From positions 1 to 64,000 of the forward strand of contig CANGPN010000012.1 in assembly GCA_947456305.1 (NCBI GenBank): 64,000 bases of DNA, given 5' to 3'. Shown piece after piece: positions 3,491 through 30,938 of this stretch. Source of the stretch: Comamonadaceae bacterium. Its GTDB lineage: Bacteria; Pseudomonadota; Gammaproteobacteria; Burkholderiales; Burkholderiaceae_C. The notes below the pieces were generated by a model that worked only from the letters and a program-made list of their open reading frames with translations, did no database searches and had not been told where the DNA came from. The translations under genes and the position numbers were made by a program. The first letter of the stretch is position 1. Each line of letters starts with the position of its first letter.

Positions 3491-3541
3491 CCCGCCGCTC
3501 AACGCCAGTGATTTCAAACGTTTTGTTTGTGGAAAGAACAC

Positions 3542-4272: not shown

Positions 4273-5217
4273 CTAGAGATTCTCACTAACTTTTCCAACG
4301 TAAATTTTTGCTTTTTGTATGTTTGGCTTTAATTTAGTAGCTTCACCTGGGTGAAACCGTCCAAGTAATCCAACCATTTGGGCGGCTTTGTTGAGGGCTG
4401 GAATTGATTCAGATTGAGTCGTTGCTCGGTGGACTTGTGCCCGTATGTTTGCCCTTTTTTGCCGTGTCAATGAGGGCTTGCGGTTCACAATAAGTTTTGT
4501 GACCATCATCACGCCAGAGTCAGAAAAAACTTCATGTTTTTTCCTTGACGGAGAAAATCCATGTTTTATTAGCATTCCGTAAACTTGGCCAATGACTCTT
4601 TTCTGAAAAGGTTTCGAGATAAATGATTTTGCAGACATGGCAATATCGTCAACATATCTTGAATAAGTAATGCCGTCTTGCGCTAGCCTTGCTTGCAAGT
4701 ATGGTTCAACTCTCCAAAAAACTAAATTAGCAAGATAGGAACTGGTTTTTGCCCCTTGTGGAATGGCACTGTCTTTCGTCGTGATCGCTGTAAGCACCCT
4801 CGCAACGTCTTCCGAAAATAAGAAAAAATTTTGCCAAATATCCATTACAAGCTCAGATCGAATGGAGGGAAAAAAATTTTTTACATCTTCACAAATAATG
4901 ATTTTTTTATTTGTATGTAAAGTGGCATTGGTTACATAATCACACCCTTTTAAGCTGCCGTGCAAGTAGGGCGGGAAATCAACACGAGAAAGTATGCGAG
5001 TTTTAATGCGCTCGTGTACGACTTTCAAGAGTCCCTTGGCATCAAAAGTAAGCCTTGTCTTTCCCGCCTTTGTTATGTGATTTTCCCTATACATTGTGTT
5101 CGCACGAAGTGACAACTGCTCCAGTGCTGCTTCTTCAATGCCAAGCGCCGCAGCAAGTTTAGCTACCGTTCTAATGGGTTCACATGGGTAATGTGGTCTG
5201 ATGAGGTGCAGGCTCAT
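4273..5217 (-). CDS. Retron-type reverse transcriptase
   Basis: A 314-residue reverse transcriptase. Motif A is EDVKNFFPSI (residues 110-119), the block IPQGAKTSSYLANLVF is at 152-167, and the catalytic YVDD is at 188-191. IPQG..TS..LANL and the short length without maturase or endonuclease domains fit retron RTs rather than group II introns. The retron VTG motif appears as VTK (239-241), a departure from consensus. The gene overlaps the 3' end of the XRE gene by 38 bp, so the two are translationally linked, and a 78-residue ORF and a structured non-coding stretch lie upstream. It would copy part of the retron ncRNA into branched msDNA. The RT call is firm; retron membership is inferred from motifs and context. 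Confidence 0.85.
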   Translation of the reverse strand: MSLHLIRPHYPCEPIRTVAKLAAALGIEEAALEQLSLRANTMYRENHITKAGKTRLTFDAKGLLKVVHERIKTRILSRVDFPPYLHGSLKGCDYVTNATLHTNKKIIICEDVKNFFPSIRSELVMDIWQNFFLFSEDVARVLTAITTKDSAIPQGAKTSSYLANLVFWRVEPYLQARLAQDGITYSRYVDDIAMSAKSFISKPFQKRVIGQVYGMLIKHGFSPSRKKHEVFSDSGVMMVTKLIVNRKPSLTRQKRANIRAQVHRATTQSESIPALNKAAQMVGLLGRFHPGEATKLKPNIQKAKIYVGKVSENL

Positions 5218-9938: not shown

Positions 9939-9956
9939 ACGGCGCATACCTTGCGT

Positions 9957-10127
9957 TCATGCGGGCGCCAAAGGCTCCATACGCACCACGGCACGCGCTC
10001 CCACCGCACTCGCAAAACGTTGCACTGTCCGCATGGATGGCGTGCCTCTGCCACTTTCTATGCGTGCCACCACGCTTTGGGTCGTGCCCATGCGTGCGGC
10101 CACTTCGCCTTGCGTCAGGCCCGCATA
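9957..10127 (-). pseudogene. Duplicated fragment of the 7855-8148 antitoxin gene
   Basis: The minus strand encodes AGLTQGEVAARMGTTQSVVA through ARAVVRMEPLAPA, nearly identical in DNA to bases 7866-8030 of the complete XRE gene. The N-terminal 39 residues and the toxin are missing. The frame runs upstream into unrelated sequence, so it has no proper start. A duplicated, decayed copy. Confidence 0.8.
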
Positions 10128-10221
10128 AACACCGCGTTCTAAAGACCAGAAGGTGGATTGCAGCGCGTCCCAAACTGCTATCGGCCAGGCAAAAAATAGC
10201 GATGGATCTAACGGCAAACCA

Positions 10222-10237
10222 CTGTATAAAATAACAG
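10222..10237 (+). promoter_or_regulatory. Probable LexA (SOS) box
   Basis: CTGTATAAAATAACAG fits the LexA consensus CTGT-N8-ACAG exactly, with an AT-rich centre and flanking A and T (ACTGT...ACAGT) also as expected. It lies 16 bp before the start of the BRO/DinD-like gene, so that gene should be induced by DNA damage. Confidence 0.75.
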
Positions 10238-10253
10238 TTTTATTGGGCGCAAT

Positions 10254-11177
10254 ATGAAAAAAATCACCCCCAACGATCCCGCGCACCACATCGCGGTATT
10301 CCAAGAAACCACCATTCGCCGTGTCTGGCACAACGAGGAATGGTGGTTTGCCCTGAGCGATGTCATCGTGGTGTTAACCGATTCGGCAGATCCACGTCAA
10401 TACATCAAGAAGATGCGTAGCCGTGACCCTGCTCTGGACACCAACTGGGGTACAACTTGTACCCCCCTTGCGCTTCGGGCCTCAGACGGAAAGATGCGAG
10501 AGACCAATTGCGCCAACACAGAAGGCCTGTTCCGCATCATCCAGTCCATCCCGTCGCCCAAGGCCGAGCCGTTCAAACGCTGGCTGGCGCAGGTGGGTTA
10601 CGAGCGGGTCAAAGAAATTGAAAACCCAGAACTGGCCAGCGCCCGTGCCCGTGAGTTGTACCAAGCCAAAGGCTACCCGCAAGCATGGATCGAGAAGCGG
10701 TTGCGCTCTATCTCCGTGCGTGGGGAGCTAACCGACGAGTGTAAGGCGCGGGGCGTGGCCGAGGGCAAAGAGTACTCGATACTCACTGCCGAAATTGCCC
10801 GCGCTACCTTTGGCGTGACGCCCGTCGAACACAGCCAACTTAAAGGCTTGGATCTGGTGAAGACCGGTAACAACCTGCGCGATCACATGACCGACCTGGA
10901 GTTGATCTTCACCATGCTGGGCGAAGCAAGCACCACCGAGATTGCCCGCCGCAGCGACGCCTTGGGTTTTGATGAAAACCGCACTTCAGCCAAAGAAGGC
11001 GGGAAGATTGCTGGCAACGCCCGCAAAGCGCTAGAGGCCAAAACGGGTAAGAAGGTGGTGAGCAAAGCCAACTACCTGAACACAACTCCCTCGCCTGGTT
11101 TGCTGGATGCGCCCCAACCGGCAGCGCCGAGCCAGCCCAAAGTTAAGGCGAAGTCGAAGTTGGCCAAGGGCACATAG
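10254..11177 (+). CDS. BRO-N / DinD-like DNA-damage-inducible protein
   Basis: A 307-residue protein. The N-terminal domain (about residues 12-110: IAVFQETTIRRVWHNEEWWF, ALSDVIVVLTDSADPRQYIK, then ANTEGLFRIIQSIPSPKAEPFKRWL) is the BRO/antirepressor fold. The rest (YQAKGYPQAWIEKRLRSI, HSQLKGLDLVKTGNNLRDHM, TDLELIFTMLGE) resembles DinD-like proteins. The C-terminal 40 residues are Ala/Pro/Lys-rich and probably disordered. A good LexA box just upstream supports SOS control. E. coli DinD is reported to inhibit RecA filament activity; whether this one does is unknown. Confidence 0.75.
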   Translation: MKKITPNDPAHHIAVFQETTIRRVWHNEEWWFALSDVIVVLTDSADPRQYIKKMRSRDPALDTNWGTTCTPLALRASDGKMRETNCANTEGLFRIIQSIPSPKAEPFKRWLAQVGYERVKEIENPELASARARELYQAKGYPQAWIEKRLRSISVRGELTDECKARGVAEGKEYSILTAEIARATFGVTPVEHSQLKGLDLVKTGNNLRDHMTDLELIFTMLGEASTTEIARRSDALGFDENRTSAKEGGKIAGNARKALEAKTGKKVVSKANYLNTTPSPGLLDAPQPAAPSQPKVKAKSKLAKGT

Positions 11178-13160: not shown

Positions 13161-14300
13161 TCAGTTCTTTTGCGTGGTGGCCAGAAACTCAATGATGGCT
13201 TTGATTTCTTCGTCAGGCAATATGCCACCCCAGGTGGGCATGCCCAGGTCAGGACGGCCTTTGGTGATGGTGGTGTAAGCCACATCTTTCCACTCATCTT
13301 TGTAGCGCTTGCTTAGTTTGCGTAAATCGCGCTCAGGGATGGGGCTGGCGCCGTTGCTGCCGTGGCAATGCGAGCACTTGTTGTTGAAATTGGATTTGGC
13401 TTCGGCAATGGTGTCGCCGCTTTCAGCCACCAGCCACTCACGCTGCTGAGGTTTGTCGCTGACTTTCATGAAGCCGGATTTTGCCGGCGCGACTGTCGAC
13501 TGTGCGTAATGCGTATCGGTTTTGCGGCTGTTAACGATGAGAGGCACTTGCAAAGGAAAGCCGTATTTCACGGTCAGTTGTTGAATCTCAGGTTTGAGTT
13601 CTTCTAGAGCCTTGTTAATGCGGTCTTTCAACTCTAGGTTCTCTTTGGAAACAGCGACGGCGACTTGTCCACCCAAGCCCTCACCGTTGATGGGGATGAC
13701 TTGCCAGCGGTTGTCAAACTGCTTTTTATTGTCAAAACCTGCACTCGGTCCCCACAGCAAAGCCGCGTCAATTTCTTTTTTGTTTAATGCCTCAAACACT
13801 TCTTCTTGAGAGCGGAAAGTGCTGGCTGTGTAGCCGCCTTGCGAGGCCAACAGAATTTGCGGGGGAGAGGCATGCAGCACGCCGATTTTTTTGGCTTTCA
13901 GGTCTGACAGTGCGGATACCTTCACGCCTTGAGCTGCCACGATGGCGTAACTGACATTCAGGAAAGGATTGCTCTTGGACAGGCCTTTGACTTTGTATTC
14001 GGAGTCTGCGGGCAAAGCGAAATACGCATCACAACCTTCCATGGTGTTGCGCAGAGCGCGTCGCTGATTGAAAGACAACCACCACACGTATTCAACTTTG
14101 GCGCCCAAGCGTTGACCGACCATTTCAGCAAGTTCGATATACAAGCCTTTGTCGCTGCCTTCAGATTTGCTAAAGGGCAGGTTGTCCGGGTCTGAACAAA
14201 CTCGCAATGTCTCTGCAGCCATGGCGGAGGACAGCGTGATACTTGCCAAAGCCACCACACTCAGTGCAGTTTTGACAACACGGTTGAACGACTTGCTCAT
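13161..14300 (-). CDS. XoxJ-like periplasmic binding protein fused to cytochrome c
   Basis: A 379-residue exported protein. A signal peptide ends around AMAAE (residue 30). Residues 31 to about 275 are the quinoprotein-dehydrogenase-associated solute-binding domain (LRVCSDPDNLPFSK, VEYVWWLSFNQRRALRNTM) found in MxaJ/XoxJ. Residues about 300-379 are a c-type cytochrome with CSHCH at 309-313 and the likely distal Met in PDLGMP near 354. In methylotrophs these two functions are usually separate genes (xoxJ, xoxG). The PQQ dehydrogenase gene lies just upstream on the same strand, so this is probably its partner and electron acceptor. CAGGAG precedes the ATG. Confidence 0.88.
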   Translation of the reverse strand: MSKSFNRVVKTALSVVALASITLSSAMAAETLRVCSDPDNLPFSKSEGSDKGLYIELAEMVGQRLGAKVEYVWWLSFNQRRALRNTMEGCDAYFALPADSEYKVKGLSKSNPFLNVSYAIVAAQGVKVSALSDLKAKKIGVLHASPPQILLASQGGYTASTFRSQEEVFEALNKKEIDAALLWGPSAGFDNKKQFDNRWQVIPINGEGLGGQVAVAVSKENLELKDRINKALEELKPEIQQLTVKYGFPLQVPLIVNSRKTDTHYAQSTVAPAKSGFMKVSDKPQQREWLVAESGDTIAEAKSNFNNKCSHCHGSNGASPIPERDLRKLSKRYKDEWKDVAYTTITKGRPDLGMPTWGGILPDEEIKAIIEFLATTQKN

Positions 14301-14646
14301 AAAGATACTCCTGAAGTTGAATGGAATCAGCTGAAACGCAGCAGATCAAAGTACGTGGATGGAACTGAAAAAATCATGATGTCTATTATGAGAATGCAAC
14401 TGACAATTAACTGAATCAATGCAAAAAAACGCGAGTTGTAAGGGTTTAAAACACAAGTTTCAGATGGACTCAAAGTATGCATAGTCATATTTTTCAGTGT
14501 GATTTCAAAAAACCGGAACAGTACAAACAAACGTTCAAGGGTTTATCTGGTATTCAAGTCAGGCACTTTGAAATCAAGCCGATGGAGCAACTTTGCGCAG
14601 ATAAAAAAACACCGCCCGAAGGCGGTGTTTTTCATCTCAACTGAGA
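14301..14646. other. Intergenic region between PQQ dehydrogenase and its partner gene
   Basis: About 346 bp, AT-rich, without a credible gene. It holds the terminator of the dehydrogenase gene at its right end, so the downstream fusion gene probably has its own promoter here. I could not fix a -35/-10 pair with confidence. Confidence 0.5.
14605..14632. terminator. Rho-independent terminator after the PQQ dehydrogenase gene
   Basis: AAACACCGCC (14607-14616), loop CGAA, GGCGGTGTTT (14621-14630) form a perfect 10-bp stem. It is bounded by A-runs on the left and T on the right, so it can end transcription in both directions. It lies 15 bp beyond the dehydrogenase stop codon. Confidence 0.9.
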
Positions 14647-16326
14647 TCAGTCCAAAGCGAACACAAACAATGTGCCGCCTTCAGGGCTGGCTGCAACCAT
14701 TCTCTCGCCCAATGTTCCGAAGAACGCGGGGATAGATTGTGTGCGGCCTGACACGACTGCAAGGTATTGCTTGCCGTCGAGTGTGTAGGTCATAGGAGCG
14801 GCAGTGATGCCTGAACCGGTGTTGAACTTCCACAGTTCTTTACCTGTTTTGGCATCCATAGCGCGGAACACGCCTTTGATGTCACCAGCAAAAACCAGAC
14901 CGGTAGAAGTGGTCATGGTGCCGCCGTTGAAAGGCAGTTCGTCTTTGTTGAACCACACTTGTTTTTGCTTCACGGGGTCCCATGCTTTCAAACCGCCGCC
15001 GTGGCCGCCTGGGCCCACTTTGCTCAAGTCAAAGTTCACGCCCAAGTAGAACTGGCCGCGCTTGTACTCTTCTTGAATGCCTTCCAGGTCCATACACAGG
15101 TTGATGGTCGGGATGTAGACCAGGCCTGTTTTGGGGTTGTAAGACATAGGCATCCAGTTTTTGCCGCCGATCAGGTTGGGGCAAATGTCTTTAGCCCATT
15201 TTTTCAGGCGAGGACGCTTTTCGTTGTTGGCCGCTTCGATAGGAGCGCCTGTCTTCAGGTCAATACCGGTTGCCCAGTTGACGCCGTCGATGAACTGCTT
15301 GGCAGACAACAGTTTGCCGTTAGCGCGGTCGATGACGTAGAAGAAGCCGTTACGGTTAGCTTGCATCAGGACTGGAACTGTCTTGCCGTCGATAGGCAGG
15401 TCAGCCAACACCAATTCATTCACGCCGTCATAGTCCCATGCATCATGCGGTGTGAACTGGTAGTGCCACACGATGTTGCCTGTGTCAGGGTTCAAAGCCA
15501 CCACAGAAGCTGTGTACAGGTTGGTGAACTTGCCGACGTCAGAAGAGTCATTGCCGCGAACGATGGCAGACCAAGGCGCAGGGTTGCTGGTGCCGTAGTA
15601 AACCAAGTTCAGCTTGGGATCGTAAGAACCGATGAACCATGCAGCGCCGCCGCCGGTTTTGCCTGAGTCACCTTTCCATGTGTCAGCATTTTTTTCGTTG
15701 CCGACTGGAACGGTGTGGGTACGCCAGATTTCCTTGCCGGTGGCTTGGTCCAACGCAATGATGGCACCGCGAACACCGTACTCACCGCCGCCGAAGCCGG
15801 TGATGACCATGTTCTTGACCAATGTGGGGGGAGAAGTGATGACTGAACCTTGGGTGTAATCAACCACTTTAGTGGTCCACAGTTCCTTGCCTGTTTTTGC
15901 ATCGAGGGCAGTGACTTGTGCGTCAAGGCGGCCGAAGAAAATCTTGCCATCGTTGTAAGAAACGCCGCGGCTGTTCACGTCACAGCAAGCGTACTGGTCA
16001 ACGCCTTTAGGCATTTCAGGAGAGTATTTCCAACGGACTTCACCGGTTTTTGCGTTCACAGCAAAAACGTTTTTCGGTCCGAAAGAGGAAGTCACGTACA
16101 AAGTGTCACCAACCAGAATAGGTGTGGATTCCTGTGAACGGTTGGAGCCGAGTTGCAGCGCCCATTTGACGTTCAATTTGTTGACGTTGGCCGGGGTGAT
16201 TTGACCGGCTTGGCTGTAACGCTGGTTGCCAGCGTCGCCGCCGTAAATCGGCCAGCTTTGTGCGCTGGCCAATGAGGCAGCACCCAGAGCAGCAGCCAAT
16301 GCGACTGACTTGATTAACAGTTTCAT
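14647..16326 (-). CDS. PQQ-dependent alcohol dehydrogenase, lanthanide-type
   Basis: A 559-residue periplasmic quinoprotein with signal peptide (cleavage near SAQS, residue 23). It oxidises primary alcohols, passing electrons to cytochrome c. The vicinal disulfide pair CC is at 114-115, and metal-ligand candidates are Glu182 (GGGEYG) and Asn248 (SNPAPW). WDYDG at 297-301 gives catalytic Asp298 and a second Asp at 300; this extra Asp marks lanthanide-dependent enzymes (XoxF, ExaF/PedH), where calcium enzymes have Ala or another residue. It lacks a fused haem domain. Shorter than typical XoxF (about 600), so the substrate could be methanol, ethanol or another alcohol. No PQQ synthesis genes are in the window. 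Confidence 0.88.
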   Translation of the reverse strand: MKLLIKSVALAAALGAASLASAQSWPIYGGDAGNQRYSQAGQITPANVNKLNVKWALQLGSNRSQESTPILVGDTLYVTSSFGPKNVFAVNAKTGEVRWKYSPEMPKGVDQYACCDVNSRGVSYNDGKIFFGRLDAQVTALDAKTGKELWTTKVVDYTQGSVITSPPTLVKNMVITGFGGGEYGVRGAIIALDQATGKEIWRTHTVPVGNEKNADTWKGDSGKTGGGAAWFIGSYDPKLNLVYYGTSNPAPWSAIVRGNDSSDVGKFTNLYTASVVALNPDTGNIVWHYQFTPHDAWDYDGVNELVLADLPIDGKTVPVLMQANRNGFFYVIDRANGKLLSAKQFIDGVNWATGIDLKTGAPIEAANNEKRPRLKKWAKDICPNLIGGKNWMPMSYNPKTGLVYIPTINLCMDLEGIQEEYKRGQFYLGVNFDLSKVGPGGHGGGLKAWDPVKQKQVWFNKDELPFNGGTMTTSTGLVFAGDIKGVFRAMDAKTGKELWKFNTGSGITAAPMTYTLDGKQYLAVVSGRTQSIPAFFGTLGERMVAASPEGGTLFVFALD

Positions 16327-19897: not shown

Positions 19898-21132
19898 AAG
19901 TTCTTTTTCTTCACCAGAATTTTCCGGGTCAATTCAAGCACCTGGCGCCGGCGCTGGCAGTCGCCGGTCATGAAGTGCACGCCTTGATACTTGCCAACAA
20001 ACCCGGCATGCTGTGGCAGGGTGTGCAAGTGCACACATATTTCCCCAAACGCAGCAGCACGCCGGGCATACACCCTTGGATCATCGATATGGAGGCCAAG
20101 GTCATACGCGGTGAAGCGGTATTGCACTGGGCGCTTGCTTTCAGGCAACAGGGTTTTTATCCGGATATCGTGATCGCCCATCCTTCCTGGGGTGAAAGTC
20201 TGTTTATTAAACAGGTCTGGCCCGCAGCCCGGTTGGGCTTGTTTTACGAAATGTTCTACCAGACCCAAGGTCAGGATGTGAACTTCGATCTTGAATTTTC
20301 CAAACCGGAACTCAGCGCTGAAAGCCGCTTGCTGGTGAAAAATGCGGTGACTGTCTTACAGCACCAAGACGTGGATGCGGCGGTCTCACCCACGCACTGG
20401 CAGGCGCAGACCTACGCCCCGCACATGCGCGAAAAAATCACCGTGGTTCACGATGGCATTGATACCGAGGTCATACGTCCTGATCCGGCGGCCCGCTTGA
20501 CCTTGGACGATGGCCGCAGCTGGTCGCGGGACGACGAGGTGTTGACCTTTGTCAGCCGCAATTTAGAGCCTTACCGTGGCTACCATGTGTTCATGCGCGC
20601 TTTGCCCGGTGTGCTGCGTTTACGGCCACATGCGCAGGTGCTCATAGTTGGCGGCGACGGCGTGAGTTATGGCGCGAAGGCTCCTGAAGGAAAAAGCTGG
20701 AAGCAAATCTTCATCGACGAAGTGCGCATGCAAATACCCGACAGCGATTGGCAGCGTGTGCACTTTCTGGGGCGGCTCGCTTATCCGCAGTTTTTGACGA
20801 TGCTGCAAATCAGCCGGGTGCATGTGTATTTGACCTATCCGTTTGTCCTGAGCTGGAGTTTGATAGAGGCCATGAGCAGCGGTTGTGCCATTCTGGCCAG
20901 TGACACCGGACCGGTGCACGAAGCCATTGAGGACGGTGTCACCGGGCGCTTGCTGCCTTTTTTTGATGTGACGGCCTGGGTTCAAGGCATACACAGTTTG
21001 ATGAACGACCCTTTTGAGCGCGAGCGCCTGGGCGCAGCGGCGCGTGCGCGGGCGATCGAACGGTATGACTTGCGAACCGTTTGTTTGCCGCGCCAGTTGG
21101 CCTGGGTGCAGGCCTTGTCTAAATCACTTTGA
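19894..21132 (+). CDS. Glycosyltransferase family 4 protein
   Basis: A 412-residue GT-B glycosyltransferase. The N-terminal domain (KVLFLHQNFPGQFKHLAPAL) belongs to the subgroup often annotated Glyco_trans_4_3. The C-terminal domain has FVSRNLEPYRGYHVFMRALP, VHFLGRLAYPQFLTMLQISR and the nucleotide-sugar site SWSLIEAMSSGCAILASDTG, then VHEAIEDGVTGRLLPFFD. Starts with GTG overlapping the b561 stop by 4 bp. Its 3' end overlaps the convergent dioxygenase-rhodanese gene by 14 bp. The sugar acceptor is unknown. Confidence 0.9.
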   Translation: MKVLFLHQNFPGQFKHLAPALAVAGHEVHALILANKPGMLWQGVQVHTYFPKRSSTPGIHPWIIDMEAKVIRGEAVLHWALAFRQQGFYPDIVIAHPSWGESLFIKQVWPAARLGLFYEMFYQTQGQDVNFDLEFSKPELSAESRLLVKNAVTVLQHQDVDAAVSPTHWQAQTYAPHMREKITVVHDGIDTEVIRPDPAARLTLDDGRSWSRDDEVLTFVSRNLEPYRGYHVFMRALPGVLRLRPHAQVLIVGGDGVSYGAKAPEGKSWKQIFIDEVRMQIPDSDWQRVHFLGRLAYPQFLTMLQISRVHVYLTYPFVLSWSLIEAMSSGCAILASDTGPVHEAIEDGVTGRLLPFFDVTAWVQGIHSLMNDPFERERLGAAARARAIERYDLRTVCLPRQLAWVQALSKSL

Positions 21133-23479
21133 AATGGTGACTGCCGTCCCTGCGTAGTTGCTCCACCAAGCCGTACTCCCAATCTAAATAGGCTTGCATG
21201 GCCTGCGCCGGGTTGTCTAAGCCCTCGTATGGGCGGCGATAACGATCAATGCGCGGACTCGCCAGGTAAGACTCGCCTTGCTGGGTGCTGAAACCTTGGG
21301 CGGTCCAGGCGGCATTACCGCCGGGCAACCAAAGCACTTGCACGCCTGGTCGAACCAGCGGTTGCAATTCGGCTACCGCGAAACGTGAAGCACGTCCGTC
21401 AGCACAGGTCAGCACATAGCGGTTGGCCTTGTGTACCCGGCTGAAGTCCTGTGCCAGTTGTGAGCGCAACAGCCACCAGGCGCCAGGTATGTGCCGTTTG
21501 ACATAGGTGGCACTGTCTCCTACATCGATAACCATACTCAGATTGCTGCGGTTGGCAAGCCATTCTTTAAGTGTGACCGGATCGACCTCAGCCACAGGTG
21601 TCAGCGGCTCGGGCAAACCAAAGTCAACTACTGCCGTGTCCTGCAAATCCTCGGGCTTGAGGTCTTTGAGCACAAAGGTCTCCCAGCCCATTTGCGCCAG
21701 CCATGAAGCCGTCATTGAGGCGCGCACGCCATCGTTGTCGTACAGCACGATGCGCGCGCCGCGCACACCGGCGTAGTGATCGGTTTCCTGCACCAGTTGC
21801 CCGCCGGGCGCACTGTGTGCCCCTTGCAAGTGGCCCAGCGCATATTCCTCTGGCGAGCGCACATCGAACACATAGGTATTGCGTGTGTTGTCGTTCAGCA
21901 AGACCTGTAATTCCTGTGTATCTATGCGTTGGACACCGGCGCGAAACAGCAATGCCAGCGCCGAGGCTGCGGCTTTCTGCCGGTCGGCGTCCTTGACTTC
22001 ACCGAAACGTTTATCCGCCTTGTGTTCAAGTTCCAGCCCGGCCAGATACCAGCCCATGGTGCCGTTGCGCAAAGCGCAGACGGGGTTGGGAATGCCTGCA
22101 TTCACCAGCGATTGGGTGCCGATGATGCTGCGCGTGCGACCGGCGCAGTTAACCACAATGCGCGTGGTCGCACTTGGCGCCAGACTGCGGGCGTGCAACA
22201 CCAGTTCTGCACCGGGGACGCTGATAGCGCCCGGAATACTCATGGTCTGGTATTCGTCATAACGTCTGGCGTCCAGCACTACCATGTCGGCATCGCTGTC
22301 TATCAGGGCTTTGACTTCGGTGGCCGATAACGACGGTGTCTTGCGCTTGGACTCCACCAGTTCCGCAAAAGCTTTGCTGGCTACATTCACATCGCGGAAC
22401 AACTCGCCGCCGGCGGCGGCCCAACCGCTCAAGCCGTTTTGAAAAATACTCAATTGCGTGTAGCCCATGCGTGTCAACACCTGCGCCGCACGCACAGTCA
22501 AACCCTCGCCGTTGTCTATCAACACTAGCGGTGTGTCCAGGCGAGGTATGCGACGCCGAGCATCGGCTTCGATACGGCCATAAGCCAGATGAATGGCAAA
22601 CAGCGGGTGGCTTTGCGCGTACAAGTCTTCTTCGCGCACATCGATCAGTGCGATTTCCTGCTTATCCAGCAAAGCCTGCCGCACTTCTTCGTAGGTGCTG
22701 ATGGCGTAGCCGTGCGCGGGCGTGTCTGCTGTGACATTCAGAGCTGTAATCTCATCGGCAGGGGGCAGTTCTGAGTCCTGCAGAGCCGCGGTACTTGCCG
22801 GGGCAGTCAAGGGCGCGACGTTGACCGGTGCCGGACTGTCCGTCAAAGAAATACGTTCAGGCACTGAGGGGTGTGTGGCTGACATGGCAGGCCCCGGCGC
22901 TGAGCTGACTGCCACGTTGGCGTAACCGGAAATGAACACACTGCGCGACCCGTCTTCGCGGTAACTGTGCCGCTCGATCCGTCCAATCGGACCCCCGTAC
23001 ACGTGAATGCTGACGGACACCTGGGCGGGTAAGGCATTCCATGTTTTGTGCACATCGCCTATGTTCGGCGAAACAGCTTCAATATCGCCCGGCAACATAT
23101 CGATTTGAAAACCGGCCGGCACCCAGCGGCCGTCTGACATGCGGCTATAGGGTTGAATGGACTCGCTGCCGCGCAGCATGCCTATCAAACCCCAGACCGT
23201 GTGATCGTGGATAGGCGTGGACTGGCCCAGACCCCAGACAAAACTGATCACGGAAAACCGGTCCTGAGGATCGGCATACATCAGGTATTGCTGGTAGTGC
23301 GCAGGGTGGGCTTGCGCCAGCTCAGGCTGCAACCAATCGTCATATTGCAACAGGTGTTGCATCAGGCGCTGGCCTTGTGCCAGCAATTGAGCTTCAGGGG
23401 GTGCGGTGTCGACCAGCCTGGTCATGTCGGCCAGAAACTGGTGCAGTCTGTGACTGTTGGCGTTGTTTGCTTCGTACAT
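21119..23479 (-). CDS. Cysteine-dioxygenase-like protein fused to four rhodanese domains
   Basis: About 786 residues. The first 190 form a cupin of the cysteine/thiol dioxygenase family, with Fe ligands in TPIHDHTVW (HxH) and a third His in GDVHKTWN. Four rhodanese domains follow a Pro/Ala-rich linker. Domain 2 (NCAGRTRS) and domain 4 (LTCADGRASR) keep the active-site Cys, while domain 1 (IDNGEGL) and domain 3 (YDNDGVRAS) have lost it. The protein probably oxidises a thiol and handles the sulfur via persulfides in one chain. Start uncertain: ATG 23479 fits, GTG 23521 adds 14 residues. The sox genes lie close by. Confidence 0.85.
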   Translation of the reverse strand: MYEANNANSHRLHQFLADMTRLVDTAPPEAQLLAQGQRLMQHLLQYDDWLQPELAQAHPAHYQQYLMYADPQDRFSVISFVWGLGQSTPIHDHTVWGLIGMLRGSESIQPYSRMSDGRWVPAGFQIDMLPGDIEAVSPNIGDVHKTWNALPAQVSVSIHVYGGPIGRIERHSYREDGSRSVFISGYANVAVSSAPGPAMSATHPSVPERISLTDSPAPVNVAPLTAPASTAALQDSELPPADEITALNVTADTPAHGYAISTYEEVRQALLDKQEIALIDVREEDLYAQSHPLFAIHLAYGRIEADARRRIPRLDTPLVLIDNGEGLTVRAAQVLTRMGYTQLSIFQNGLSGWAAAGGELFRDVNVASKAFAELVESKRKTPSLSATEVKALIDSDADMVVLDARRYDEYQTMSIPGAISVPGAELVLHARSLAPSATTRIVVNCAGRTRSIIGTQSLVNAGIPNPVCALRNGTMGWYLAGLELEHKADKRFGEVKDADRQKAAASALALLFRAGVQRIDTQELQVLLNDNTRNTYVFDVRSPEEYALGHLQGAHSAPGGQLVQETDHYAGVRGARIVLYDNDGVRASMTASWLAQMGWETFVLKDLKPEDLQDTAVVDFGLPEPLTPVAEVDPVTLKEWLANRSNLSMVIDVGDSATYVKRHIPGAWWLLRSQLAQDFSRVHKANRYVLTCADGRASRFAVAELQPLVRPGVQVLWLPGGNAAWTAQGFSTQQGESYLASPRIDRYRRPYEGLDNPAQAMQAYLDWEYGLVEQLRRDGSHHFKVI

Positions 23480-23553
23480 CAGAGAGCATTTTTTAATAAG
23501 TACCGATTGTTCCACAGTCACCCGCTGGTGCGGTCAGCCGTCTGCAAACCGCT

Positions 23554-24420: not shown

Positions 24421-25212
24421 CTATTTGCGTACGGAAGGTACTTCAATATTCAGGCCTTGCGCCCGCCACATCAGGTAAAGGCTGATGTCGCGCATCACGC
24501 CATGGCCCCAAGGCGGCACTTCGGCGCGAACGCCGTTGTAACAAAAACGCAATCGCCGTTCCAATGAAGCCAACCGCTGCCATTCGATGCGGTAAGCAGG
24601 GTAAGCGTTGGGCTGGCCCTGGCTGAGCCGGTCGGTGTAGAGCTTGATGCCGTAGCGCTGGTCATGGCACTGGGTGCACGACATGTTCATTTGCCCTTGG
24701 CGGGTCATGAAGATTTTCTGGCCGTTTTCAAAATGGCTTTTGGCTTTGCCTTCGATATCCGCCTGTATGGGCATGCCATTGGAGGCTGAGGTCACAAACA
24801 AGCTGACCGCCAGCAATTCATCAGATTCCAGCGGCCAGTCTGCGGCTTTTTGTTGTTTGGTGCGGCAGTTGCGTATGCGGTCTTCCAGGTTGAGCAGCTT
24901 GCCGCTGGGTTTGTCGATGGCCGGATAGCGCGCGGCCACGCCTTTCATGCCGCTATTGATTTCACCGTGGCAGCTCTCACAACTTTTGTCGGATTTACCA
25001 GCCGCCTGGCTCCACAATTTTGTGCCCTTGTCCATATAGGGCAGAGCCGGGTTGGCAAAGTCGTCGGCTTGTAATTCCAGAATTTCCGGCCCGGTAAATG
25101 CCAGGCCGGATTGCACCTTGTCCAGCGGCAGCAAGCGTTGTTGCGCCATGGCCTGACCCAGACCTGAAACAGCCGCAAGCAGCAAAGCAGCAGTCAGGTA
25201 CTGTTTGCTCAT
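24421..25212 (-). CDS. soxA: Sulfur-oxidation cytochrome SoxA
   Basis: A 263-residue exported cytochrome c; a signal peptide runs to about AMAQQ. There are two haem motifs, CESCHG and CTQCHD, and the Cys in RRLRFCYNGVRAEVPPWG matches the active-site Cys-persulfide haem ligand of SoxA. With SoxX it couples thiosulfate to the SoxYZ carrier. Started at ATG 25212, which gives a clean signal peptide; an earlier ATG at 25254 overlaps soxZ. Last gene of the soxXYZA series. Confidence 0.92.
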   Translation of the reverse strand: MSKQYLTAALLLAAVSGLGQAMAQQRLLPLDKVQSGLAFTGPEILELQADDFANPALPYMDKGTKLWSQAAGKSDKSCESCHGEINSGMKGVAARYPAIDKPSGKLLNLEDRIRNCRTKQQKAADWPLESDELLAVSLFVTSASNGMPIQADIEGKAKSHFENGQKIFMTRQGQMNMSCTQCHDQRYGIKLYTDRLSQGQPNAYPAYRIEWQRLASLERRLRFCYNGVRAEVPPWGHGVMRDISLYLMWRAQGLNIEVPSVRK

Positions 25213-25253
25213 GGCGTGGCGCAACTGTGAAGGCAGAAAACAAAAACGTGGCA

Positions 25254-25604
25254 TCAGGATTTAGGGGCGGAAGATTGGTTGGCCGGAATGACCACCAGGT
25301 TGTGACGTAACTCGCCGATATAGCCTTTGTCGTCGACCCAGCGGAAATACAACTCGCCCGAGGTGGTGGCGCGCAAATAAAACTCGAACAAGGGGTTGGC
25401 CGCTGTGCCGGTGGTGGGTTCGACGCGGAACACTTCTTTGTCGTGGTACATGCATTGCAAATGGCGAATCACATTGCGCTTGACCAGCACGCCTTCGAGG
25501 TTGCGCAAAAAACCGCTGTCCATGGGGTGCTGCACCAGCAGACGCAGCTTGAACACATCGCCTTCGACGATGCGCGGGGGGACTTGTAAACGGGCAGCAG
25601 TCAT
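25254..25604 (-). CDS. soxZ: Sulfur carrier partner SoxZ
   Basis: A 116-residue immunoglobulin-like protein that forms the SoxYZ carrier. Typical segments are VPPRIVEGDVFKLRLLVQHP, MDSGFLRNLEG and FEFYLRATTSGELYFRWVDD. It starts 3 bp after soxY. No signal peptide, as usual: it would be exported with SoxY by the Tat system. Confidence 0.92.
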   Translation of the reverse strand: MTAARLQVPPRIVEGDVFKLRLLVQHPMDSGFLRNLEGVLVKRNVIRHLQCMYHDKEVFRVEPTTGTAANPLFEFYLRATTSGELYFRWVDDKGYIGELRHNLVVIPANQSSAPKS

Positions 25605-25607
25605 GGT

Positions 25608-26114
25608 TTAACCGTTGTCCACACAGGCGGCTTCAGTCACCGACACCTGGCGCGACGCATAGCGGAAATTGCCGTCAGACATCCGCGCCAGCGCCACCAC
25701 CATTTGCGTGCCGGACAAACGCACTCGCATGCTGAGTTCGGCGCGGCCGTTCCAGGGCCCGAGCACAAACATGGCCATCAGCGGCGCCGGGTTGAGTTGT
25801 GACAACAGATAGACATGGGTGACATGAGACTCCTCGGTCATCGGGCTGTCGACTTTTAAACTCAGTGGCACCAAGTGACCGTTGTCTGCCAACAGGGGCA
25901 GCGACAAGCTGATGCCTTCGTTTTTCAATTGCTGGCGCACCACATAAGGCGTCACCATTTCGTCGAAAGTGCGCAAGCGCGCGTCACTCAGGTCTTGCAC
26001 CCGGCCGAGCACCGACATGTCCTGGGCTTGGGACAAGCCTGAGAAACCGGCCCACAAGCCTGCCGTGCTCAGGCTGAAGCGTCGGAGCCAGTCACGGCGA
26101 GACAGTAAGTACAT
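25608..26114 (-). CDS. soxY: Sulfur carrier SoxY with atypical C-terminus
   Basis: A 168-residue protein with an N-terminal twin-arginine-like signal (LLSRRDWLRRFSLSTAGLW). The body (VTPYVVRQQLKNEGISLSLP, SHVTHVYLLSQLNPAPLMAM, GTQMVVALARMSDGNFRYAS) is SoxY-like. The usual C-terminal swinging arm GGCGG is absent: the protein ends TEAACVDNG, keeping one Cys three residues before the end. That Cys may still carry sulfur, but the flexible glycines are lost. The 5' end touches the soxX stop. Confidence 0.85.
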   Translation of the reverse strand: MYLLSRRDWLRRFSLSTAGLWAGFSGLSQAQDMSVLGRVQDLSDARLRTFDEMVTPYVVRQQLKNEGISLSLPLLADNGHLVPLSLKVDSPMTEESHVTHVYLLSQLNPAPLMAMFVLGPWNGRAELSMRVRLSGTQMVVALARMSDGNFRYASRQVSVTEAACVDNG

Positions 26115-26527
26115 CAGGGTCCTTTGGTAGCGTCGAGCAAATAGGCCACGATATCTTCAAGGCCTTGCTCGGTGAGTACGGTTTTGCCAATCTGCGGCTT
26201 GGCGACATTATGGAGACCTTTGGTGCTGAAGTAGGCCGGCATGAAAGTCTGGGGGTTTACCGCTCTCCAGTCGGCGATGCGCTGGCGGATTTGATCGGCG
26301 GTCATGCGCTGGCTCAGGCCACCAAGGTTCGGCCCCATGTCGCCGCCTTCTTTCATGCCGGGGATTTTGTGGCACAGCACGCAACCGGTTTCCTGTCGGC
26401 TGATCAAAAGTTTGCGTCCGCGCTCGACATTGGCAGTGGCCGCAGACTTGGTCGGCGGCATGCTGTTTTCTGCGGCCCACGCATGGGCTGCCAACAGGGC
26501 TGCCGCACACACAATCCAGTGTTTCAT
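26114..26527 (-). CDS. soxX: Cytochrome SoxX
   Basis: A 137-residue exported monohaem cytochrome c, starting at ATG 26527 after trimming a longer frame. The signal peptide ends near AWAAE. The haem motif is CVLCHK, and a likely distal Met lies in PQTFMPAYF. ERGRKLLISRQETGCVLCHK and AYLLDATKGP are typical of SoxX. The start overlaps the stop of the molybdenum hydroxylase gene by 4 bp (ATGA), so the two are translationally coupled. Confidence 0.9.
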   Translation of the reverse strand: MKHWIVCAAALLAAHAWAAENSMPPTKSAATANVERGRKLLISRQETGCVLCHKIPGMKEGGDMGPNLGGLSQRMTADQIRQRIADWRAVNPQTFMPAYFSTKGLHNVAKPQIGKTVLTEQGLEDIVAYLLDATKGP

Positions 26528-28680
26528 GCTTTCACCAAAGTCAAGCCATGGTTTTTCAATGGCAGCGAACGTATGCGCTTGCCGGTGGCGGCGAACAGCG
26601 CATTGCCCAACGCAGGTGCCAGTGGCGCTTGCGTGGGCTCGCCGACACCGCCCCAAAAACCGCCGGTCGGTGCGATCACGGTTTCCACCTTGGGCATTTC
26701 ATTCATGCGCATCATGTGGTAGTCGTGGAAATTGGATTGTTCGACACGACCGTCTTTGACCGTCATTTCGCCCCAGAAGATGGCGGACAAACCATGCACC
26801 ACACTGCCTTGCAATTGCGCTTGTATGTTGTCGGGGTTGACCGCATAACCCGGGTCAATGCCGATGACGACACGGTGGATTTTCACTTCGCCGCGCGCAC
26901 TGACCGAGACTTCGCACACGCAAGCGGTCCAACTGCCGTAACCGTCGACACCGGCAATGCCCCGGTGCACGCCGGCGGGCAGCGGTTTGTCCCAGTCAGC
27001 GGCTTTGGCCACGGCCATCAACATGCTGCGGTCGCGGTTGGCTTTCTCGTTGTTCGGCAGCAATGACAAGCGGTAAGCCAGCGGGTCTTGGCCTGCGGCA
27101 TGGGCCAGTTCATCCAAAAAGCATTCACGCACAAACGGGTTTTGCGAATGCCCGACGGTGCGCCAAAAACCCACCGGCACGTGGGTGCTGCGCATGGCAA
27201 AGTCAACCAGCGTGTTGGGTATGGCGTAAGGGTGGTCGGGGAAGCAAGCCACGGCCTGGTTGTCAACACCGTTTTGCAGCGGCATGCGCAGCAGTTGAGA
27301 AAAAATGGATGGCGCACTGACGCGCACATGCAAGGCCTGCGGTTTGCCGCTTGTATCCACGGCGGCACGCATGCGCACCAGGCTGGCCGGGCGGTACAAG
27401 TCGTGCTGCATGTCTTCTTCGCGGCTCCACATCAGCTTCACCGGTTTACCCGGCAACTGCATGGCAATGGCGACGGCTTGGCGGGTGAAGTCTTGCGGGC
27501 TTTTGCGACCCAGTCCACCACCCATTTGCATGGCAAACACGCGCACATTTTCTTGCGGCACCTCGGCGGTGGAGGCAGCCGCAGTCAAGGTGGATTCCGG
27601 ATTTTGGGTGGAGGCCCAAATGTCGACTTTGTCGCCATTGAGCAAAGCAGTGCACACCATAGGTTCCATGGTGGCATGTGCCAGATACGGTGTGTAGTAA
27701 TCGGCCTCGATCACTTTGGATGCGGTTTTAAGAGCAGCCAGCGTGTCGCCGTCATTGCGGGCGATGGCCACTTCTTTTTCGTTCAAGCCGTCGCGGTAGT
27801 ACTGCATCAGGCTGGCGCTGTTGACGCTGCCGTGTTTGCCGTTGTCCCAATCAATGGCCACATCGCGCAAAGCTTCTTTGGCACGCCACCAGTTGTCGGC
27901 CACCACGGCGACAAACTCGCCCAGGTTGATGACTTTGACAATGCCGCGTCGGCTGTCCACTTTGCTGCTGTCAATGGCGGTGGCCTTGCCGCCGAACACT
28001 GGCGACTGCGCAATGGCGGCATGCAGCATGCCGGGCAATTGCACGTCCACGCCATAACGGATTTTTCCGGTGACGATGTCGGTGATGTCTACGCGCGGTA
28101 TCGGCTTGCCTGCCAGCGTCCAGGTTTTCGGGTCCTTCAGGGGAATGTCTTTGGGTGGTGTCAGCTTGGCGGCATCGGCGGCCAGTTGGCCGTAGCTGAG
28201 CTTCTTGCTGCTGGCGCTGTGAACCACTTGGCCCAGGCTTGCTTTGCATTCAGCAACCGGCACGCCCCAGCGTTGTGCGGCGGCTTCAACCAGCATGATG
28301 CGGGCGGCTGCACCGGCTTTGCGCAAATAGTCTTGCGACATGCGTATGGTGCGGCTGCCGACGCTGGCCATGTCGCCATACACACGCTGGCGGCTGAGGT
28401 TGTCATGCGCGGGCACATCGACCACGCGCACTTGTTTCCAGTCGGCTTCCAGTTCTTCGGCGATCAACATGGGTGCCGAGGTGCGGCTGCCTTGGCCCAT
28501 TTCGGTACGCGCATAGCGAATGACGATGGACTCGTCGCTGTGAATCTCTATCCATGCGTTGACTTCGGCATGTGCGTTGGCCAATGCGGCATCCGGCCAG
28601 ACAAAACCCAGACTCAGCGCCGCAGCGGCGCTGCTACTCACTTGCAAAAATTGGCGGCGATTCAGGGCGTTGCTGCTCAT
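26524..28680 (-). CDS. Molybdopterin-binding subunit of an IorB-type aldehyde/isoquinoline oxidoreductase
   Basis: A 718-residue protein of the xanthine oxidase family with a Tat signal ([20 protein letters not shown]), as in periplasmic IorB/aldehyde dehydrogenases. [48 protein letters not shown] and the C-terminal [20 protein letters not shown], with the catalytic Glu region, are typical. It works with the 2Fe-2S subunit encoded immediately upstream (4-bp overlap). Electrons normally leave by a cytochrome c; here the downstream coupled genes are soxXYZA. The substrate cannot be told from sequence. Confidence 0.88.
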
Positions 28681-29138
28681 GATTGACCTCCGGCTTGACG
28701 CGCGGCAGCGTGTATGGCGGTGCGCATGCGTGCATAGGTGCCACAGCGGCAAATATTGGTCATGGCCGCGTCTATGTCTTGGTCGGTGGGCTGGGGTTTT
28801 TTCTTCAGCAAAGCCACGGTCGCCAGCATTTGGCCGCCTTGGCAATAACCGCATTGCGGCACCTGATGGTCAATCCAAGCCTGTTGCACCGCATGCAATT
28901 TGCCTTTGTCGGCCAGGCCTTCGATGCTGATGACTTGCTGGCCGTCAGCCGATGAAACGGGGTAACTGCAAGAGCGCACCGGCTCGCCGTTCAGCAGCAC
29001 GGTGCAAGCGCCGCATTGGGCGATGCCGCAACCGTATTTCGGACCTTTGATGTCGAGTTCATCACGCAGTGCCCACAGCAGCGGCATTTCCGGTTCGACA
29101 TCCAGCGTGTGGTTTTGACCATTGACGTTGAGTTTCAT
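28677..29138 (-). CDS. 2Fe-2S subunit of IorA type
   Basis: A 153-residue protein with the plant-type ferredoxin site [21 protein letters not shown] and the second cluster site CGYCQGGQ ... CRCGTY, typical of the small subunit of xanthine-oxidase-family hydroxylases. It passes electrons from the molybdopterin subunit. It precedes that gene with a 4-bp overlap. Confidence 0.92.
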
Positions 29139-29150
29139 GGTATGGCTTTC

Positions 29151-30086
29151 TTAAAAAAGGTAACGCTTGAGTGCGTCTGCACACACAGCCACACCGGTAT
29201 GGGCTTCGCGCATGACGCGACCCATGGTGATGAAGCCGTGAATCTGGCGTTCAAAGCAAATGTATTCAGCGCTGCCACCGGCGGCGGACAAGGCGTCGGC
29301 GTACAAGCGGCCTTCGTCGCGCAGTGGATCAAAGCCTGCTGTCAGCACCAAGGCAGGCGGCAGACCGGCGTGTGACTCGGCTTTCAAAGGCGAGGCGCGC
29401 CAGTCGTGGGCCAGATCGCGTGTTGGCAGGTAATGGTCCATGAACCAATCCATGATTTCTGCGGTGAGCGCATAGCCTTCGCCGTTGTCGCGGTAACTTT
29501 GTGTGTCCGGGTACATCAGCGTGGCCGGGTAAATCAGCAATTGAAACGCAGGTTGATGTTCGCCGCCGCGTGCGCCCAGACAAACGGCTGCGGCCAGGTT
29601 GCCACCGGCGCTGTCGCCGCCGACGGCAATCCGTTTGGCATCCACATGCAAACTGTGGGCATGCGTAGCCAGCCATTGAAAGGCCGCTTGTGCATCGTCG
29701 TAAGCGGCAGGGAACACATGCTCGGGCGCGAGGCGGTAGTCCACGGAGAACACGGCGCATCCGCTGGCCACGCACAACTGGCGGCACAGCACATCATGGG
29801 TGTCAATGTCGCCAATCACCCAGCCGCCACCGTGGTAATACATCAGTGCAGGCAGCACAGCGTTGGCAGCAACGCCTTGGGGGAGGAATTCGCGGATTTT
29901 GATTTGAGCCCCGTGCAAAGCCACCAGGTGATCGTGGCAGTGCGACACCGCAGGCGGGTCGGGTTGGGTAAAGCCTTTGCGCATCAAATAGGCTTGGCGG
30001 GCTTCGACGGGTGATTGCGCATTGAGCGCCGGAATGCCGCGTTCAATCATCAGTCGCAGCAGGGTTTGGGCTTGGGGGTCTAGCAT
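29151..30086 (-). CDS. Alpha/beta hydrolase (HSL/acetyl esterase family)
   Basis: A 311-residue esterase of the hormone-sensitive lipase group. The oxyanion-hole motif is MYYHGGGWVIGD at about 82-93, the nucleophile Ser is in VGGDSAGGNLAAAV, the acid in DPLRDEGRLYAD and the His in QIHGFITMG. Lies 12 bp upstream of the iorA-like gene in the same operon, so it may release the alcohol or aldehyde that the hydroxylase then oxidises. Confidence 0.9.
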   Translation of the reverse strand: MLDPQAQTLLRLMIERGIPALNAQSPVEARQAYLMRKGFTQPDPPAVSHCHDHLVALHGAQIKIREFLPQGVAANAVLPALMYYHGGGWVIGDIDTHDVLCRQLCVASGCAVFSVDYRLAPEHVFPAAYDDAQAAFQWLATHAHSLHVDAKRIAVGGDSAGGNLAAAVCLGARGGEHQPAFQLLIYPATLMYPDTQSYRDNGEGYALTAEIMDWFMDHYLPTRDLAHDWRASPLKAESHAGLPPALVLTAGFDPLRDEGRLYADALSAAGGSAEYICFERQIHGFITMGRVMREAHTGVAVCADALKRYLF

Positions 30087-30113: not shown

Positions 30114-30938
30114 TCATGATGCTTGTGTCACCGGTGCATAAGCACCCGTGTGTTGTTGCAGCCATTGTTGCGACAAGGTATCGGGGTGGTGTGAGGGATG
30201 AAACCCGGGCTTGAAATAGTCGCGCCATAGGCTATAGCCCTCACGGAACAAGCCCCCTTTGGCAAACAAATGTTGCCAAGCGCTGGCCCATGTGGACAGT
30301 TTGAACAAGCTGCCGTCATGCCACAGGTTGTTGACCGTTTGGCGCAGCAAATCGGTGAGGAAAAACCAAGTGACACGCCGCATCCATCGCAACCGCCATT
30401 CTTCACTGCCGCCCAAGGCTTGGTAAATGTCAAACGCCGTGCAGCGGTGTTCTGACTCTTCGCTGGCATGCCACAGCCACAAGGTTTTTAAACGCGGGTC
30501 GGCATGTTGAAAAAAATCTTCATTCGACAACAACCAGTGGGCGAAAACTGCGGTGTAGTGTTCAGTGGCAGCGGTGGCGGCGACTGCATGCCGTATGTCC
30601 ATTTGCTGGAGTATGGCGATGCGTTTGGCCGCGCGTTGTTCCCAGTGGTTGACCATGCCTTGGCTGAGCAAATGTTGGTTGTACAAGGCGTGCAGTCGGC
30701 GGTGCGTGGCTTCCTGTCCGATAAACCCTTTGACATCGCTCTTAAACAAGTCCTGTTGTTCTGCCGGTAATTGCTTGAGGCCTTCGCGCACGCTGTCCAG
30801 AAAAAACTGTTCACCTGCCGGAAAGCTCAGCGACAAGGCATTCATGAACGCGGAAGTAAAGGCATCGCCGCCGTTCCAGCGCAGCGCAAACGGCACATTC
30901 AAATCGACCAATAATTGACGGATGACAGGCGGTTTCAT
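30114..30938 (-). CDS. Predicted metal-dependent hydrolase (PF10118 type)
   Basis: A 274-residue helical protein. The metal-ligand pattern FIGQEATHRRLHALYN, TAATEHYTAVFAHWLL, and HASEESEHRCTAFDIYQALG is that of the YbgI-unrelated Metal_hydrol family, a ferritin-like di-metal fold. Function unknown; members often lie near lipid or detoxification genes. Likely co-transcribed with the esterase downstream. Confidence 0.75.
   Translation of the reverse strand: MKPPVIRQLLVDLNVPFALRWNGGDAFTSAFMNALSLSFPAGEQFFLDSVREGLKQLPAEQQDLFKSDVKGFIGQEATHRRLHALYNQHLLSQGMVNHWEQRAAKRIAILQQMDIRHAVAATAATEHYTAVFAHWLLSNEDFFQHADPRLKTLWLWHASEESEHRCTAFDIYQALGGSEEWRLRWMRRVTWFFLTDLLRQTVNNLWHDGSLFKLSTWASAWQHLFAKGGLFREGYSLWRDYFKPGFHPSHHPDTLSQQWLQQHTGAYAPVTQAS

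Follow-up and report, generated by a model that had tools for sequence, protein, structure and literature searches.

The window analysed here is a stretch of 64,000 nucleotides, positions 1 to 64,000 of the forward strand of contig CANGPN010000012.1 of a Comamonadaceae bacterium (GCA_947456305.1); the assembly has 52 contigs, of which this is C12, and is 86.9% complete. On its minus strand lie six closely packed genes in which the two subunits of a molybdenum hydroxylase, iorAB, precede the Sox genes soxXYZA. This locus is best read as a dedicated Sox variant that does without SoxB. Taken along the minus strand the genes are:

28677–29138, minus strand: iorA-like [2Fe-2S] subunit of 153 amino acids, with Fer2 and Fer2_2 domains (Pfam).
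26524–28680, minus strand: iorB-like molybdenum subunit of 718 amino acids, with MoCoBD_1/2 domains (Pfam), a predicted Tat signal and a predicted catalytic Glu681 in the motif FWGGVGEP.
26114–26527, minus strand: soxX, a c-type cytochrome (TIGR04485, 69.6 bits, cut-off 61).
25608–26114, minus strand: soxY, a carrier with the arm VTEAACVDNG instead of GGCGG (PF13501; TIGR04487, 107 bits, below the cut-off of 172).
25254–25604, minus strand: soxZ, the carrier partner (PF08770; TIGR04490, 68.3 bits, below the cut-off of 76).
24421–25254, minus strand: soxA, a diheme cytochrome (TIGR04484, 216 bits, cut-off 110; best solved relative 1h31), whose start codon is possibly further downstream, near 25209.

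The original prediction took these genes as one overlapping unit, and direct reading of the junctions confirms it. There are overlaps of 4 bp between iorA and iorB (28677–28680) and between iorB and soxX (26524–26527), and of 1 bp between soxX and soxY (26114) and between soxZ and soxA (25254), with a single gap of 3 bp between soxY and soxZ. Neither soxB nor soxCD is present within the locus, and a shikimate dehydrogenase-type gene follows soxA on the opposite strand. Both large genes belong to the xanthine oxidase (XO) family, having MoCoBD domains, a predicted catalytic glutamate and a [2Fe-2S] subunit with two clusters; iorA and iorB are labels by family membership. The Tat signal of IorB scores 19.0 bits with the NCBIfam model TAT_signal_seq (cut-off 16.7), and 16.4 bits with Pfam TAT_signal, below its cut-off of 22.7. 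An AlphaFold2 model of IorB has a mean pLDDT of 88, and its nearest solved fold is 8gy3, the large subunit of the membrane-bound aldehyde dehydrogenase of Gluconobacter (TM 0.86, 27% identity); sequence search likewise puts IorB nearest to 8gy3. SoxX and SoxA agree with the cytochromes of canonical Sox in exceeding their family cut-offs, and Cys238 of SoxA is invariant. In an alignment of 13 rows (A3), Cys130, Cys238 and the arginine four residues before Cys238 are all conserved. The counterparts of the two cysteines in solved SoxA relatives are heme ligands, and heme ligation is predicted here.

How general is this arrangement? Loci were called as open reading frames with BLAST hits, uncurated, and are partly redundant (e.g. 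L070/L075 and L046/L134); L031–L070 and L154–L156 were recruited via SoxY, and L074–L153 by IorB alone. Where junction distances were computed alongside the dN/dS values, each start codon was taken as the one closest to the stop upstream, a choice biased towards overlaps. In 40 stretches, mostly around SoxY matches of congeners and order-mates, most stretches whose match is strong place iorAB next to soxYZ or soxXYZA, and the iorA product is 91–96% identical in L061, L062 and L068. Named genomes were scanned with an IorB alignment, taking the best 80 of 575 confirmed stretches, which is not a census. Sox genes lie beside IorB in 49 of these 80 loci (48 with SoxY, and one with soxX at a contig end), spanning Alpha- and Betaproteobacteria and including Bradyrhizobium, Tardiphaga, Methylobacterium, Microvirga, Azorhizobium, Reyranella, Duganella, Roseateles and Polynucleobacter. 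The other 31 have no sox gene, some being simply short of downstream DNA. No SoxB or SoxC match lies less than 9 kb from any IorB in the loci surveyed.

Eighty-six loci contain both IorB and SoxY. Forty carry soxXYZA, 24 carry soxXYZA with flavocytochrome c, 15 carry soxYZ only (L033, L080 and L117 of these sitting less than 2.5 kb from a contig end) and seven have other contents. Flavocytochrome c sulfide dehydrogenase (FCSD) is encoded within the cluster in 26 of the 86, often in alphaproteobacteria. Annotated records of plasmids of Methylobacterium sp. NMS14P and Roseomonas marmotae list iorAB, a small cytochrome c, an FAD oxidoreductase and soxXYZA in varying order, and the Roseomonas flavoprotein has both FCSD domains. 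In Neorhizobium galegae iorA, an FAD oxidoreductase and soxXYZA are annotated; iorB is unlisted and by similarity falls in two reading frames, so that this copy may be broken. In the survey of gene order that had been proposed, the iorAB–sox order recurs in dozens of genomes, and so exceeds chance.

Two further arrangements were seen. L038 has a 383-amino-acid SoxA frame (9942–11093, minus strand) with a SoxX-like cytochrome at its N-terminus, by eye a SoxX–SoxA fusion, on the strand opposite iorAB–soxYZ. L158, on pSymA of Sinorhizobium meliloti, has soxYZ with a small cytochrome, an FCSD-like flavoprotein and the arm VATNGCL; ior, soxXA and soxB are not beside this soxYZ, which is a further context for these carriers.

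The SoxY proteins linked to ior share an altered carrier arm. The motif AC-x-[DE] is present in 83 of the 86 ior-linked sequences (the others being L033, L037 and L117) and GGCGG in all ten that are SoxB-linked. Among the IorB-recruited loci, which were unselected for SoxY, 47 of 48 have the AC-x-[DE] arm. The nearest family of the window SoxY is TIGR04487, the 'SoxY-related AACIE arm protein', which shares its arm type; the window protein scores below the cut-off of that family and its arm reads AACVD, not AACIE. Five of the ten SoxB-linked sequences are TIGR04487 high- and mid-scoring controls, so that these are not two separate tests: L197, L201, L202, L204 and L206 match TIGR04487 (76–144 bits) yet retain GGCGG. 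Thus the arm, not the overall similarity, follows the partner. A TIGR04487 survey of 370 genomes of the class, uninformative on prevalence, serves as a control. It returned mostly low-scoring ordinary SoxY, and the six scorers above 110 bits besides the window (L197–L202) have glycine-rich arms and no adjacent iorAB. The SoxYZ of L199 and L200, from the same class, have the arms GGAGGCG and GGAGACG with no SoxB, SoxX or SoxA match nearby, and are possibly further divergent carriers.

IorB is marked in a corresponding manner. A tree of 121 IorB rows, made by quick search and rooted at its midpoint, groups all 88 sox-linked rows in one clade of 109, the remainder of which comprises 11 without sox in cis and 10 undecided; the 12 rows outside the clade are 11 without sox in cis and one undecided. 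Residues that mark the sox-linked proteins include R58, R99, Y118, W187, E362, R497 and W676. The last of these lies in the motif FWGG[VI]GEP at the catalytic glutamate, and is found in 88 of 88 sox-linked rows compared with 2 of 12 outside the clade, while E681, the predicted catalytic residue, is invariant in the 16 rows of alignment A1. The window's genome encodes an IorAB paralog on contig C6, without sox neighbours; at the same motif this IorB, like the paralogs of G006 and G015, reads KPGGIGEP. In the original prediction the hydroxylase could pass electrons or a sulfur-containing product to Sox. Judged from the arm and the paralogs, it would rather act upon the cargo of SoxYZ.

The two partners have also diverged together. 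IorB and SoxY distances are correlated (r = 0.74, 86 loci), as are those of IorB and SoxA (0.75, 68 loci) and of SoxY and SoxA (0.84), with none of 2000 permutations as high. Seven congeners were compared in which there are two ior loci. One of the two has soxYZ only; the other has soxXYZA in six congeners, the exception being L057 of G026, for which these hits give soxYZ alone. Within one such genome the two IorBs are 43–47% identical and the two SoxYs 27–42%, whereas across genomes the same locus type averages 69–72% for IorB and 45–53% for SoxY. SoxA is encoded in all 12 genomes checked. The possibility that loci with iorAB and soxYZ alone work without SoxXA was ruled out where checked, as G052, G018 and G019 have SoxA elsewhere. 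Given the soxYZ-only loci, the second loci and the universal SoxA of the genomes checked, IorAB and SoxYZ look like specific pairs able to share one SoxXA loader. By comparison of these sequences we have shown that IorAB and the SoxYZ of changed arm form a co-inherited pair, usually with its own SoxXA and often with flavocytochrome c.

The genes appear to be under constraint. Compared with six orthologs (five in the case of iorA) taken from congeners with no SoxB match, the window genes have dN/dS values (NG86) of 0.02–0.04 for iorA, 0.07–0.11 for iorB and 0.06–0.21 for the sox genes, these values being rough as dS is mostly above 1 and near saturation. Such low ratios indicate that the genes are being kept. 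This bears upon a suggestion made for the only instance of the cluster that our searches of the open-licence literature turned up; neither a characterised function nor a survey came out of them. In the available sections of the report on Starkeya novella (PMC3797975) a second sox cluster, soxX2Y2Z2A2F2 (Snov_1982–1977), lies with an XO-family molybdenum enzyme (Snov_1975/1976) and without SoxB or SoxCD. By that description its gene set, soxXYZA with XO-family molybdenum genes, is that of the window; its soxF corresponds to the FCSD of many loci here, and is absent in cis from the window locus. Starkeya also holds a complete sox cluster. The second-cluster SoxAX and SoxYZ were undetected in proteomes and expression of the cluster's genes by quantitative reverse-transcription PCR was very low on glucose, methanol and thiosulfate; the authors (2013) considered the cluster either to be without functional significance or to have a role under other growth conditions (PMC3797975). 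A functionless leftover duplicate is consistent with that very low expression, but in view of the dN/dS values and the broad conservation of order and arm we regard it as very improbable.

Could IorAB be an ordinary periplasmic aldehyde dehydrogenase, with SoxXA as its cytochrome acceptor and SoxYZ a passenger? Deoxyribose and vanillin dehydrogenases have iorAB-like subunits and a possible electron-accepting cytochrome c, a likeness that is by description, and the deoxyribose enzyme has a Tat signal as does the window IorB; the sections available describe these enzymes as using free substrates, and no Sox proteins accompany them there (PMC6365646). Yet such a relay predicts the opposite of the loci that have iorAB and soxYZ without soxXA. 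It leaves the conserved arm cysteine and the purifying selection on soxY to be accounted for, and many loci already have a small cytochrome of their own. We consider it improbable.

No match to SoxB (TIGR04486) was found at E ≤ 0.001 in the window's genome. Since that genome is incomplete, its absence in near-complete relatives counts, and there is no SoxB match in G006 (97% complete), G015 (99%), G016 (98%) or G024 (94%), all of which share the window's sox locus, the copy in G016 being without iorAB. The original prediction that soxB and soxCD are missing holds for the locus, and for SoxB matches in the whole genome, but not for SoxC. A SoxC equivalog is encoded on contig C3 (TIGR04555, 613 bits, cut-off 420) beside a cytochrome that is SoxD-like by BLAST and has no NCBIfam match, which rules out the view that the genome has no SoxC. 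SoxC is also found in G015 and G014, and none is over the cut-off in G006, G016 or G024; the sox locus therefore exists without either protein, and the complete iorAB–sox locus does so in G006 and G024 (97 and 94% complete). The essential claim, of a hydroxylase–Sox unit that exists in the absence of SoxB, is upheld, for we find neither a SoxB elsewhere in the window's genome nor a lack of conservation of the order.

The window's own SoxA is the only one in its genome. A flavocytochrome c pair, fccAB, stands alone on contig C15 (L194:6095–7732, G000:C15), and a homolog lies inside the ior–sox cluster in many alphaproteobacteria. FCSD is encoded somewhere in the genome in nine of ten SoxB-less congeners with this kind of SoxY, compared with one of five congeners that have neither; the congener tallies of FCSD and SoxB were made by hand on related, partly incomplete genomes, with the arm not read in each. 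MsrP is encoded on contig C3.

Enzymes of the xanthine oxidase family hydroxylate carbon, and this together with the aldehyde dehydrogenase fold makes it most likely that the group carried by SoxYZ contains carbon. In TsdA, an enzyme of the SoxA family, a thiosulfonate intermediate arises on a cysteine, and thiosulfate is bound by residues close by that include two arginines, according to the available part of PMC4423706. On our reading of the alignments the conserved SoxA arginine would match a thiosulfate-binding arginine of TsdA. By this analogy the conserved cysteine and arginine make it likely that an anionic sulfur compound is oxidatively loaded onto SoxY. The substrate of SoxB is a thiosulfonate group on SoxYZ, as described in the accessible part of PMC5336275; with neither SoxB nor a GGCGG arm, hydrolysis of a sulfonate is unlikely here. 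FCSD in the cluster, and in the SoxB-less congeners, suggests sulfide or sulfane as a product.

These elements may be assembled into a sequence of steps. SoxXA would link a reduced sulfur compound to the SoxY arm cysteine as a disulfide, the likeliest such compound being a small organic thiol. IorAB would then hydroxylate a carbon of the carried group, passing the electrons to cytochrome c, and a carbonyl product would be released. The sulfane sulfur left on SoxY would be removed by flavocytochrome c as sulfide or polysulfide, in cis in many alphaproteobacteria and here perhaps by the fccAB of another contig. No SoxB-type sulfonate hydrolysis would be needed, which would explain both the absence of SoxB and the loss of GGCGG. 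The cluster probably breaks down a sulfur compound other than thiosulfate. The whole sequence SoxXA, IorAB, flavocytochrome c seems to us quite possible, though short of probable; that it constitutes a widespread periplasmic organosulfur pathway, in which the SoxYZ-bound substrate is hydroxylated at carbon by an XO-family enzyme while on its carrier, is put forward more tentatively still. Of the organosulfur role initially proposed, the sulfur is favoured by the FCSD found in the clusters, while we infer its organic nature.

The cargo might alternatively be inorganic: FCSD and SoxXA would load sulfane or polysulfide onto SoxYZ, and IorAB would oxidise it, taking the place of SoxCD and making SoxB needless. 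The carbon chemistry general to XO-family enzymes, the aldehyde dehydrogenase as nearest fold and the lack of a sulfate-releasing step all speak against this, as does the very low expression of the Starkeya cluster on thiosulfate (in the sections available of PMC3797975). It would nevertheless make good use of FCSD, both in the cluster and in the SoxB-less congeners, and of the Cys238 and arginine that SoxA retains, and the canonical cargo of SoxYZ is inorganic sulfur (PMC5336275, available part). We judge this route unlikely, though it is the foremost of the alternatives.

Two further genes lie upstream of iorA:

29151–30086, minus strand: hormone-sensitive-lipase-type esterase, a non-core neighbour (NF058653, 351.8 bits, cut-off 350).
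30114–30938, minus strand: PF10118 predicted metal-dependent hydrolase, a non-core neighbour (239.7 bits).

The esterase gene ends 12 bp upstream of iorA, and both proteins had been suggested as participants. We rejected them as part of the core: they are kept beside the locus in close relatives of the window and are not recurrent beside it outside the genus. Esterase homologs (53–55% identity) are divergently oriented beside a second locus type in L044, L046, L050 and L134. Our scan of the neighbours covered 186 of 194 open reading frames of the sox-linked set, eight that were cut or repeated being left out, and 73 neighbour proteins of ior loci without sox, a control, lay outside it; no family in it was widely recurrent, the commonest having four of 69 members in the first set and two of 117 in the second. 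In another alternative SoxYZ would carry carbon: an aldehyde would form a hemithioacetal with the arm cysteine, IorAB would convert this to a thioester and a hydrolase would free the acid, comparable to glutathione-dependent aldehyde oxidation. Alpha/beta hydrolases adjoin several loci of the first neighbour set, the fold is that of an aldehyde dehydrogenase, and SoxYZ fusions beside pyrroloquinoline quinone (PQQ) alcohol dehydrogenases have been argued to serve carbon metabolism (PMC11237559, in part). However, the hydrolases do not recur in the second neighbour set, the window esterase has no signal peptide as judged by eye, and there would be no job for FCSD or for SoxXA, found in every genome checked. 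We think such a scheme distinctly unlikely.

Also near the Sox locus (21119–23521, minus strand) is an 800-amino-acid protein that contains four rhodanese stretches and whose N-terminus weakly resembles cysteine dioxygenase (PF05995, E = 0.002, below cut-off). It is kept near the locus in the closest relatives at 68–74% identity, and is a possible persulfide-handling enzyme.

Several observations weigh against the SoxB-independent organosulfur reading. Of 27 genomes of the same genus in which such a SoxY is encoded, 17 have SoxB over its cut-off and 10 do not, so that absence of SoxB is not a rule of the genus; 25 of the 27 match TIGR04487 at 95 bits or above, and in the other two, G011 and G031, the arms were read. 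The SoxC and fccAB of the window's genome could oxidise carrier-bound sulfane in an ordinary manner, and the conserved arginine by the SoxA cysteine fits thiosulfate equally as well as an anionic thiol. In G016 the locus lacks iorAB, and 77 bp separate the esterase from soxX; on another contig, with sox not adjacent, is an FWGG-bearing IorB that shares 64% identity with a sox-linked IorB. Of the genomes behind the 11 in-clade ior loci where sox is absent in cis, six encode a SoxY with an AC arm elsewhere and a seventh gives a strong SoxY match with an in-frame stop, its arm unread. In the remaining four, two with other SoxYs only and two without any, no SoxY of this arm type was found. The AC-arm SoxY also occurs in one of four outgroup genomes. 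Finally, the equivalent cluster of Starkeya is barely expressed on the substrates reported in the available sections of PMC3797975.

How does the locus relate to known systems? In common with canonical Sox of the Paracoccus type (L160) it has homologs of SoxXA and SoxYZ and the SoxY arm cysteine; it differs in having no SoxB, in its AC-x-[DE] arm and in an operon molybdenum enzyme of the XO rather than the sulfite oxidase family. The SoxYZ-like carriers associated with quinoprotein dehydrogenases in ped and xox clusters (TIGR04557) are likewise SoxYZ relatives beside a periplasmic oxidising enzyme other than SoxB. These are SoxY–SoxZ fusions found with PQQ dehydrogenases and SoxH, whereas the window has separate genes, a molybdenum enzyme and SoxXA, and its unfused carriers score 57 and 44 bits against the TIGR04557 cut-off of 140. 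The large subunit of the Gluconobacter oxydans enzyme (8gy3) has a fold like that of IorB, but its aligned sequence has no FWGG motif, and we know of no Sox carrier for it. In the parts of the literature available to us, the SoxYZ-like fusions beside PQQ dehydrogenases form a different group (PMC12997753), divergent SoxYs have been proposed to take part in the metabolism of organosulfur compounds or alcohols, and Sulfurimonas CVO is said to have SoxH in place of SoxB (both PMC11237559). As far as the open-licence literature shows, the breadth of the cluster, the arm rule, the IorB clade and its motif, the pairing of IorAB with SoxYZ and the occurrence of the cluster where SoxB is not found are new.

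Elsewhere the window contains further features. At 13161–16326 (minus strand) a PQQ-dependent alcohol dehydrogenase adjoins a fusion of a solute-binding protein with a cytochrome c domain, which we take to resemble xox-type accessory proteins. A reverse transcriptase at 4273–5217 (minus strand) has as its best PADLOC model RT_VI (254 bits), presumably retron type VI, and the adjoining open reading frames 2804–3490 and 3527–4168 have no Pfam match. A Bro-N protein at 10254–11177 (plus strand) matches PADLOC PDC-S13 (386 bits), and a protein at 876–2168 (minus strand) matches PDC-S01 (336 bits); both are candidate defence or mobile-element genes.

The presence of sox genes is often read as a sign that thiosulfate is oxidised. 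As soxXYZA is conserved where SoxB was not found, soxA, soxX or soxY alone may mislead surveys of genomes, and across the loci we surveyed the two kinds of SoxY can be distinguished by their arms, AC-x-[DE] or GGCGG. The cluster is carried by many soil, plant-associated and freshwater bacteria. If the substrate is indeed processed on its carrier, an XO-family enzyme would here act on a substrate bound to a protein, and Sox proteins would handle carbon–sulfur compounds without SoxB. If the inferred chemistry is true, Bradyrhizobium, Methylobacterium, Duganella, Polynucleobacter and others would hold an undescribed route for sulfur compounds, and the purpose of the extra Sox sets in such genomes becomes testable.

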